64,000 nt of DNA from Comamonas testosteroni (lineage in GTDB: Bacteria; Pseudomonadota; Gammaproteobacteria; Burkholderiales; Burkholderiaceae_C). The position numbers were made by a program, and so were the translations under genes. The notes beneath the pieces were generated by a model. That model worked only from the letters and a program-made list of their open reading frames with translations. It was not told where the DNA came from and did no database searches. Positions within the stretch are counted from its first letter, which is position 1. Each line of letters begins with the position of its first letter. Below are positions 55,813-59,429 of this stretch, one piece after another. Location: NCBI RefSeq assembly GCF_014076415.1, contig NZ_CP043568.1, positions 5,766,001-5,830,000 of the forward strand. The letters run 5' to 3'.

Positions 55813-56310
55813 TCAGACGGTGATGGGCTTTTTCTCCACGGGAGCCTCAAAGCCCACGCACAGACGGTTCCAGACATTGATGCAGCCGATCGCGTAGCTG
55901 AGCTCCACGATTTCGCGCTCGCTGAAGTAGGGGCGCAAGGCCTCGAAGTCCTGCGGCCCGGGATGGGCCTGGCTCAGCTGCGTGCAGCGCTCGGCCCAGT
56001 TCAGCGCGGCGCGCTCGCGCATCTCGAACAATTCCACCTCGCGCCAGACCACCACGCTGTTGATGCGCTGCAGGTCCTCGCCGCGCGACAGCAGCTCGCG
56101 CACATGCATGTCCACGCAGAAAGCGCAGCCGTTGATCTGCGAGACGCGCAGATAGACCAGCTCCAGCAGCTGCACGCCGAGGCTGGAGCGCGCGATCAGG
56201 GCGTTGAGGCCGGCCTGCGCCTTGTAGAGCTCGGGGGCCAGCGCACGGAAGTCCAGGCGCGGCGCGGGGATGGCAATAGGGTTGGCGGCGGGATTGGCGA
56301 TGTCGGACAT
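55813..56310 (-). CDS. Carboxymuconolactone decarboxylase/AhpD-family protein
   Basis: A 165-residue protein of the CMD/AhpD family. The redox-active pair is Cys62 and Cys65 in GCAFCVDMH, with His69, as in AhpD-type alkylhydroperoxidases. It is the usual genomic partner of ECF41 sigma factors, and its promoter (56366-56395) matches the one before the sigma gene at 57.5 kb. Good AAGGAG before the ATG. It probably reduces peroxides or acts as a redox sensor of the sigma factor. Confidence 0.92.
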   Translation of the reverse strand: MSDIANPAANPIAIPAPRLDFRALAPELYKAQAGLNALIARSSLGVQLLELVYLRVSQINGCAFCVDMHVRELLSRGEDLQRINSVVVWREVELFEMRERAALNWAERCTQLSQAHPGPQDFEALRPYFSEREIVELSYAIGCINVWNRLCVGFEAPVEKKPITV

Positions 56311-56365
56311 GTGAATACTCCTTGAGGGACATTGCAGGCCCGCCCCAGCGGCCGGCCCATACCTC

Positions 56366-56395
56366 TTAGACGCGGCAGCGCTGCGGTTTGTGACA
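56366..56395 (-). promoter_or_regulatory. ECF41-type promoter of the CMD gene
   Basis: On the minus strand TGTCACA (56395-56389) and CGTCTAA (56372-56366) are separated by 16 bp. The -10 end lies 56 bp before the start codon. ECF41 promoters are described with a TGTCACA -35 and CGTC -10; the same element precedes the sigma gene. Confidence 0.8.
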
Positions 56396-56551
56396 GGCCT
56401 GGCCGTTCATCGCCGGGTTATCAATAGACATAGCTCCTATCGCCCGGTGTAAAACAAATTCAGCAATAAAACCATCTGAATCTGTTGATTGACTTGCGGT
56501 AACAGCTATTGCTTTCTTCGCCTTCTGCGACGGGCGTCGCCCATCAGGCCA

Positions 56552-57475
56552 TCAGGCACCCGGCACGAGCACGCGGGTCAGCTTGTCCGGATTGCGCAGC
56601 GTGTAGATGCGCCGGATCAGTCCGTCCTCGACCAGCAGCGTCTGCACCGACTCCACCTGGCCATCCACGCAGCGCACCAGACCCGGCAGGCCGTTGACCC
56701 GCGCCAGATGCAGGGTCTGCTCCTGCCCGTCGCGGCGCAGGCGTCGGGCCGTGGCGAAATACAGCAGCGCCAGGCGGCGCCCGGTTTCCAGCACGCGGCC
56801 AAAGGAAGCCACCTTGCCGCCGCCGTCGCTGATCAGCGCGGCATCGGGCGCGAAGAGCGCCTGGATCTGCGCCAGATCGCCGCCCCGCGCAGCCTGGGCA
56901 AAGCGGCGCAGCAGCTCGGCATGGGCCTGTGCGGGCGCCTCGAAGCGCGGCCGTCCGGCCTTCACATGGGCACGCGCGCGGTGCACCAGCTGGCGGCAGG
57001 CGGCCTCGCTGCGGCCCAGCGCCTGGGCCACTTCGGCATAGTCGGCATCGAAGACCTCACGCAGCAAAAAGGCCGCGCGCTCCTCGGGCGTCAGCTGCTC
57101 CAGCACGAACAGCAGCGCCGTGGAGACGTCATGGGCCTGCTCCAGCAACTCCTCGGCCGAGGGAGCGGCCTCGGTCCAGGGCTGGACCAGCGGCTCCGGC
57201 AGCCAGAAGCCCGCATAGTGCTCGCGCTCCACACGCAGGCGCCGCAGCCGGTCTATGGCCAGCCGCGTGGCCGTGGTCACCAGCCAGGCCTCGGGCTGGG
57301 CAATGGCGGCGCGCTCGCTGTCCTGCCAGCGCAGCCAGACATCCTGCACCAGGTCCTCGGCCTCGGCGCGCTGGCCCAGCATGCGGTAGGCCAGCCCGAA
57401 CAGGCGCGGGCGATGGCGCTCGAAATCCTGCAGTCCCGCATCGGCGGACGGCGCAGCGTGGGAAGTGGGGCTCAC
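56552..57475 (-). CDS. ECF41-type RNA polymerase sigma factor (SigJ-like)
   Basis: A 307-residue alternative sigma factor. Region 2 (about 23-90, with GLAYRMLGQRAEAEDLVQ), the linker motif WLPEPL (91-96), region 4 (about 125-172, LTPEERAAFLLREVFDADYAE) and a C-terminal SnoaL-like domain with DGGGK (217-221) and NPDKL (295-299). These C-terminal motifs define ECF41, in which the extension replaces an anti-sigma factor. GTG start with GGAGACATCAC before it. It is surely autoregulated: its promoter has the same -35/-10 pair as the CMD gene next to it. Confidence 0.93.
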   Translation of the reverse strand: MSPTSHAAPSADAGLQDFERHRPRLFGLAYRMLGQRAEAEDLVQDVWLRWQDSERAAIAQPEAWLVTTATRLAIDRLRRLRVEREHYAGFWLPEPLVQPWTEAAPSAEELLEQAHDVSTALLFVLEQLTPEERAAFLLREVFDADYAEVAQALGRSEAACRQLVHRARAHVKAGRPRFEAPAQAHAELLRRFAQAARGGDLAQIQALFAPDAALISDGGGKVASFGRVLETGRRLALLYFATARRLRRDGQEQTLHLARVNGLPGLVRCVDGQVESVQTLLVEDGLIRRIYTLRNPDKLTRVLVPGA

Positions 57476-57531
57476 GTGATGTCTCCTGCAAATAGGCCGG
57501 GCCAGCCACCCAGTGTGACAGGCCCCAAGCC

Positions 57532-57561
57532 TTAGACGCAGAACCAGCGCACTTTGTGACA
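57532..57561 (-). promoter_or_regulatory. ECF41-type promoter of the sigma gene
   Basis: TGTCACA (57561-57555), 16-bp spacer, CGTCTAA (57538-57532) on the minus strand. The -10 end lies 57 bp before the GTG start, as in the CMD promoter. A further TGTCACA at 57520-57514 has no -10 partner. Confidence 0.8.
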
Positions 57562-57607: not shown

Positions 57608-57672
57608 AAGGGCCGCCCCGCACCGAAGGTGTCGTCCCCTTGGGGGGAAGCGGCGCCGCCGCTCATGGGGGA
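57608..57672 (+). repeat. Intergenic GC-rich repeat, copy 2
   Basis: GGGCCGCCCCGCACCGAAGG, then TCCCCTTGGGGGGAAGCGGC and GCCGCTCATGGGGGA. The TCCCC...GGGGGAAGCGGCG-N-GCCGC order is the same as in copy 3. It fills the space between the sigma promoter and the gamma-glutamyltransferase stop. Confidence 0.6.
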
Positions 57673-59360: not shown

Positions 59361-59429
59361 GCAAGAGCCGCCTCGCGGCGAGGATGCCGTCCCCCTCCCA
59401 GGGGGAAGCGGCGTAGCCGCACAGGGGGT
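59361..59429 (+). repeat. Intergenic GC-rich repeat, copy 3
   Basis: GCAAGAGCCGCCTCGCGGCG, a hairpin CCCCCTCCCAGGGGG (59391-59405), AAGCGGCGTAGCCGC, then CAGGGGG. Shares its first half with copy 1 and its second half with copy 2. Confidence 0.65.

Follow-up and report, generated by a model that had tools for sequence, protein, structure and literature searches.

How does an ECF41 sigma factor gene that shares an identical promoter with a CMD partner gene work: which genes does it serve, how is the sigma factor held in check and what part does the CMD protein play? The question is raised by a locus on the minus strand of the 64,000-nucleotide stretch of Comamonas testosteroni DNA analyzed here (the window), which a preliminary description had read as a compact, autoregulated stress unit with the cysteine pair of the CMD protein as a possible redox input. 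In the direction of transcription, its genes, promoters and intervening DNA are as follows.

57532..57561, minus strand: ECF41 promoter TGTCACA-N16-CGTCTAA before the sigma gene, with its +1 predicted at 57526; kept in 13/13 clade genomes
56552..57475, minus strand: ECF41 sigma factor gene, 307 aa, GTG start; sigma2, WLPEPL linker, sigma4 and a C-terminal extension with DGGGK and NPDKL
56405..56535, minus strand: AT-rich interspersed element, lying after the sigma stop and before the CMD promoter; two further partial matches in the genome
56366..56395, minus strand: ECF41 promoter TGTCACA-N16-CGTCTAA before the CMD gene, with its +1 predicted at 56360; kept in 13/13 clade genomes and 6/6 sister-clade genomes
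55813..56310, minus strand: CMD/AhpD-like partner gene, 165 aa, ATG start, AAGGAG Shine–Dalgarno-like stretch, CxxC

The sigma protein passed the cut-off of NF007214 (SigJ; 320.4 bits, cut-off 271) and, only narrowly, that of TIGR02957 (SigX4; 325.5 bits, cut-off 323.25). SigJ is named as an ECF41 member in the accessible text of a review (PMC8999054), and this is the basis for equating the two models with ECF41. Pfam returned sigma regions 2 and 4 plus a sub-threshold PhyR sigma-like match, and approximately 137 residues remain after the sigma4 match as the C-terminal extension, for which ECF41 members should have roughly 100 aa or more. WLPEPL, DGGGK and NPDKL, from which the preliminary description had called the family, are all present and are conserved or nearly so among 22 aligned proteins, with a few variants of WLPEP. 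Its further call of a SnoaL-like tail stood in part: DGGGK and NPDKL are in place and PDB 5xe7 (SigJ) matches residues 13–300 (E 6.7e-48), that is, the sigma domains and the tail, but no SnoaL domain was returned by Pfam at E 0.001. Judged by its sequence, the assignment of the gene to ECF41 (SigJ-type) is secure. Among 13 sigma matches in this genome, it is the one above the family cut-off, the best of the other 12 scoring 45 bits. The closest named locus among the best 80 of 360 belongs to a Comamonas sp. metagenome bin (sigma identity 96%). One congeneric genome (L040) carries a sigma homologue with one in-frame TAG.

The CMD protein was matched by PF02627 (67.7 bits), TIGR00778 (51.2 bits, cut-off 27.8) and the structures PDB 7xw1, 2ijc and 2o4d (named PA0269), at E 5e-35 to 1e-34. 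It contains NGCAFCVDMH, and the CxxC, with Asp and His, is invariant among 16 aligned proteins. The immediate neighbors of the sigma gene are CMD downstream and a gamma-glutamyltransferase gene upstream, and neither of these two is an anti-sigma gene.

That the two genes carry the same promoter at matching distances, as first described, was confirmed: measured from the element's last base to the start codon's first, TGTCACA-N16-CGTCTAA lies 56 bp before the CMD ATG (56310) and 57 bp before the sigma GTG (57475). A promoter of the form TGTCACA-N16-CGTC upstream of COE and ECF41 genes is reported in the accessible text of Wecke et al. 2012 (PMC3426412). TGTCACA-N14-18-CGTC matched twice in the window, compared with an average of 0.09 matches in 100 shuffles, none of which gave two. 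The bare heptamer was found five times versus 5.78 expected; being at chance level, TGTCACA alone means nothing. Across the genome (5.95 Mb), TGTCACA-N15-17-CGTC gave six matches and its reversed control also six; the short motif is therefore not rare and cannot alone define a regulon. The exact TGTCACA-N16-CGTCTAA, for which the preliminary description had suggested a genome scan, occurs nowhere else. The continuation CGTCTAA was seen only at the two locus sites, the other four genome matches reading CGTCTTA, CGTCAGC, CGTCGAT and CGTCGGC. Could the matching elements have arisen by chance in a GC-rich genome? The equal counts of motif and control would allow it; against this, both full CGTCTAA elements lie at these genes and both are kept in 13/13 clade genomes although the spacer varies, which makes chance very improbable.

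The extent of the regulon was assessed by comparing genomes. The sigma gene was found in 29 of 120 related genomes searched, its own included. In the 13 genomes of the window's clade (own included; sigma identity 86–99%), both elements and a downstream CMD gene were present without exception. TGTCACA-N15-17-CGTCT was found at 29 sites in these genomes, 26 of them the two locus sites and three elsewhere, compared with five for the reversed control. From these counts, the regulon in the window's clade would essentially comprise the sigma and CMD genes only. Two of the three extra sites are a site before an HlyD-type adaptor gene. In the window's own genome, the only extra site in an intergenic region, G000:C1:220163-220189 (L001, L159), is 75 nt from the start of such an HlyD-type efflux adaptor gene, next to which a MerR-type gene runs divergently. 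Six of the 13 genomes searched carry the adaptor (E 1e-120 or better), and the site is exact in two of these and degenerate in a third; the other three have no exact element and differ in upstream sequence. A wider regulon in this genome that includes the adaptor was set aside as a weak candidate only, its site being poorly kept among relatives.

Two repeated elements were also observed at the locus. The AT-rich element (56405–56535) has two other partial copies in the genome (identity 76% and 81%), one of which ends approximately 26 bp upstream of the ECF41-like motif at G000:C1:220163, a spacing nearly as at CMD. The GC-rich element GGGGGAAGCGGCG-N2-5-CCGC-N1-6-GGGGG is present in exactly ten genome copies (reversed control 0), and two of its copies (57643–57671 and 59401–59428) flank the gamma-glutamyltransferase gene.

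The part played by CMD can be approached through a sister clade in which the pair is separated. In six such genomes (sigma identity 82–84%), no CMD gene was found within 1.5 kb on either side of sigma (6/6); the CMD orthologue (73–77% identity) lies on another contig, or approximately 152 kb off in the single-contig genome, and keeps an exact ECF41 element in 6/6. TGTCACA-N15-17-CGTCT gave nine matches in the six genomes (six at CMD, two at sigma and one elsewhere; control one), and the remaining four sigma genes carry a variant of the element. Because the promoter is retained in all six genomes in which CMD lies away from sigma, this arrangement suggests that CMD would be a target in trans, and it speaks against a linked sensor.

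In redox-sensing anti-sigma systems (RsrA/ChrR-like), the partner inhibits the sigma factor. If CMD were such a sensor or anti-sigma factor, its CxxC would sense an oxidant and release sigma, and the invariant cysteine pair with Asp and His in the 16 aligned proteins, as well as the adjacency of the genes in 13 clade genomes, would fit. Separation from sigma in 6/6 sister-clade genomes, with the promoter kept as for a target, argues against this, as do three points in the accessible text of PMC3426412: co-expression of YdfG with Ecf41Bli in B. subtilis made no significant difference to sigma output (data not shown there), truncating the extension changed sigma activity, and approximately one-third of the published ECF41 genes lack a COE neighbor. 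We regard this role of CMD as very unlikely, and the redox input first proposed for its cysteine pair is not supported, published partner co-expression having left sigma activity unchanged.

The reading that we prefer, and consider very probable, is that of an ECF41 sigma factor self-inhibited by its extension that activates itself and its CMD partner through the shared elements. The extension at the C-terminus would hold sigma inactive, with no separate anti-sigma factor, until a signal relaxes this hold; sigma would then direct RNA polymerase to TGTCACA-N16-CGTC before its own gene and before CMD, with positive autoregulation and CMD induction as the outcome. We infer promoter recognition, control by the extension and the start sites from published relatives. 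The SnoaL-like extension is described as inhibitory in the accessible text of a review (PMC8999054). C-terminal control was tested in B. licheniformis and R. sphaeroides, and partial removal of the extension raised activity while full removal abolished it, according to the accessible text of PMC3426412. In the same text, the COE gene is the only detected target in both species. Autoregulation, already claimed in the preliminary description, is a published ECF41 property and is supported here as a prediction by the element before the sigma gene itself. The term stress unit was a guess: in the accessible text of PMC3426412, deletion and over-expression strains showed no significant difference with peroxide and paraquat, and phenotype arrays gave no reproducible phenotype.

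The two products are unlikely to be made in equal amounts. In the 13 clade genomes, sigma starts with GTG in 12 and TTG in one, behind a conserved leader, and CMD starts with ATG behind an AAGGAG/AGGAG-like Shine–Dalgarno stretch; CMD is therefore probably made in excess of sigma. A terminator scan found none in the stretch from the sigma stop to the CMD promoter (its two matches lie elsewhere), so the sigma transcript may read through into CMD.

The beginnings of the two messages were then considered. The ninth base after CGTC was taken as the predicted +1, following S. meliloti, in which the motif of an ECF41 pair lies 9 nt upstream of the mapped transcription start site (TSS) and CMD is the single target, according to the accessible text of PMC3616915 and PMC6180224. 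Two leaders would result.

57476..57526, minus strand: predicted sigma mRNA leader; the third TGTCACA (57514–57520) forms the 5′ arm of a possible hairpin, 57499–57525
56311..56360, minus strand: predicted CMD mRNA leader; begins with an AUG at the predicted +1 and may form a hairpin, 56336–56358

The preliminary description had pointed to a third TGTCACA without a −10 element, and the heptamer is indeed there, with no CGTC at the right spacing. It would occupy +7 to +13 of the sigma mRNA if the +1 is at 57526. An exact copy is found in 12/13 clade genomes, 40–41 bp below the first, as might be expected if it were the −35 of a tandem sigma promoter (P2) near the GTG. However, a CGTC-like −10 was absent at 15–18 bp below the heptamer in all 13 leaders (0/13), and a second promoter was judged unlikely for this reason. 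The rest of the leader, including GTGGC, is also conserved, which a −35 alone does not predict, and L027 lacks the heptamer yet retains most of the fold. The third TGTCACA is most likely part of a strongly conserved sigma leader rather than a second promoter.

Whether the leaders fold into functional 5′-terminal structures (for stability or translational control) is doubtful. The sigma leader can be drawn as GGGGCC-U-GUCAC-ACUGG-GUGGC-U-GGCCC. Its core stem-loop was predicted in 13/13 leaders over a longer span and in 12/13 from the predicted +1, and the CMD core stem-loop in 12/13 and 13/13, respectively; in addition, leader sequence is strongly conserved and, in one distinct row, a G-C pair of the CMD leaders is replaced on both sides by A-U. 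Against a functional fold, stability is approximately that expected from base composition (mean z over 13 leaders each, −1.04 for sigma and −0.57 for CMD; window leaders −1.57 and −0.77), and no pair of the named sigma structure changes on both sides. RNAalifold's own sigma structure has one such pair. The CMD stem is 95.2% paired over 20 leaders (13 distinct), and its covariation was equaled in 216/500 shuffles. The hairpin was accordingly dropped as a proven structure, shuffles and covariation controls giving no support beyond composition. Folding models leave a sigma leader hairpin possible and weakly supported.

In 17 of 20 CMD leaders from two clades (L017–L025, L028, L076 and L196–L201), an AUG stands exactly at the predicted +1 (window 56358–56360), with the CMD start approximately 50 nt further on. 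A conserved upstream peptide from this AUG is unlikely, as the frame is not kept. In the window, 54 codons follow the AUG in a frame other than that of CMD, whereas several relatives have it in the CMD frame; of the six sister-clade genomes, five have a frame of 14 to 37 codons and one has the AUG in frame with CMD. A possible upstream open reading frame overlapping the sigma GTG in the window's leader was likewise discarded, its frame being lost in relatives with a 2-nt insertion (alignment judged by eye).

Start codons were surveyed in 109 loci with a sigma gene (29 related genomes and the best 80 of 360), unconditioned on the start codon, using the relaxed motif [TC]GTCAC[AGT]-N15-17-CGTC. 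The motif was present at 43 sigma genes, and the 66 without it were not used. Fourteen of the 43 belong to the window's clade (L017–L029 and L076), with 59–61 nt from CGTC to the start. Among the other 29, an in-frame start codon lies 8–10 nt after CGTC in 21, and 16 of the 29 have no start codon later than 10 nt and are predicted to give leaderless sigma mRNA. Such genes occur in, for example, Delftia, Variovorax, Azohydromonas, Piscinibacter, Hydrogenophaga, Paraburkholderia, Xanthomonas, Stenotrophomonas and Nonomuraea. On the leaderless reading, the sigma start codon would lie at or within 2 nt of the predicted transcription start in many beta- and gammaproteobacteria, as well as in at least one actinobacterium; the call assumes the start site from S. 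meliloti.

CMD genes differed. The element was found at 32/42 CMD genes. Outside the clade, none of 18 (0/18) has an in-frame start at 8–10 nt; all 18 have a later start codon, at 23–85 nt, and five also have one at 0–6 nt. Within the clade, the Shine–Dalgarno-led ATG of CMD at 56 nt is joined by a second in-frame ATG at 8 nt in 6/14 genes, which counts against a clean rule. The Fisher value for the asymmetry between sigma and CMD, 6.7e-5, is too small because the survey contains partly redundant loci: a single Comamonas/Delftia cluster accounts for seven of them, including L030 and L077 with an identical promoter stretch, and there are three pairs of relatives, L038/L039, L088/L089 and L111/L132. 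By eye, approximately ten lineages stand each way. When exact elements only were counted in the 80 named loci (best 80 of 360), 33 loci held 42 elements, and ATGs in any frame peaked at 8 and 9 nt after CGTC (six and five, compared with at most four at other offsets up to 59). A pattern search of 399 order-level genomes gave 30 matches in 24 genomes and ten reversed-control hits; it demands ATG by design and was therefore excluded from the leaderless count.

From this survey we propose, tentatively and with rather less than even confidence, that ECF41 units may give the regulator and its partner different message starts, an often leaderless sigma and a leadered CMD, which would give low loop gain, and that the window's clade may keep the gain low through its GTG/TTG start and a conserved, possibly structured leader. 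No statement that ECF41 mRNAs are leaderless was found in the passages of the ECF41 literature accessible to the search, which left subscription papers mostly outside, and some details of how the sigma and CMD messages begin look unreported.

While the locus itself repeats the published ECF41 design, the comparative detail could matter. The sister clade offers a natural hint that CMD would be acted on in trans rather than serve as a linked sensor. The asymmetry between leaderless sigma and leadered target would provide a simple idea of how a self-activating sigma factor without an anti-sigma factor avoids runaway expression, and it is these unequal message starts that merit closer attention.

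The layout, shared promoter and autoregulation of this unit are already known for ECF41. A literature search, from which subscription papers were mostly out of reach, found no paper treating ECF41 and Comamonas together. According to the accessible text of PMC3426412, the hallmarks of ECF41 are the WLPEP linker, the C-terminal extension and CMD partners with CxxC. Ecf41Bli/YdfG and RSP_0607/RSP_0606 resemble the window's pair, in the same text, in their WLPEP linker, long extension, CxxC CMD protein, lack of an anti-sigma factor and TGTCACA −35; their −10 is TGTT or CGTC, and no target other than the COE gene was detected for them. Unlike in the B. licheniformis and R. sphaeroides loci, sigma here precedes CMD and each of the two genes has its own element. 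This arrangement has also been reported: in 53 loci with sigma upstream of COE (the >ECF> >COE> class), the element was found at 14 sigma genes and 24 COE genes, and at both in approximately 20%, as given in the accessible part of the paper. The S. meliloti pair RpoE9/SMb20029 is likewise ECF41, with CMD as sole target and the same motif; unlike in the window, its CMD gene comes first and the pair is likely cotranscribed (PMC6180224, accessible text). At the protein level, M. tuberculosis SigJ (PDB 5xe7) resembles the sigma factor over the sigma domains and tail (residues 13–300), and PA0269 (PDB 2o4d) resembles CMD over residues 17–154 (E 1.1e-34).
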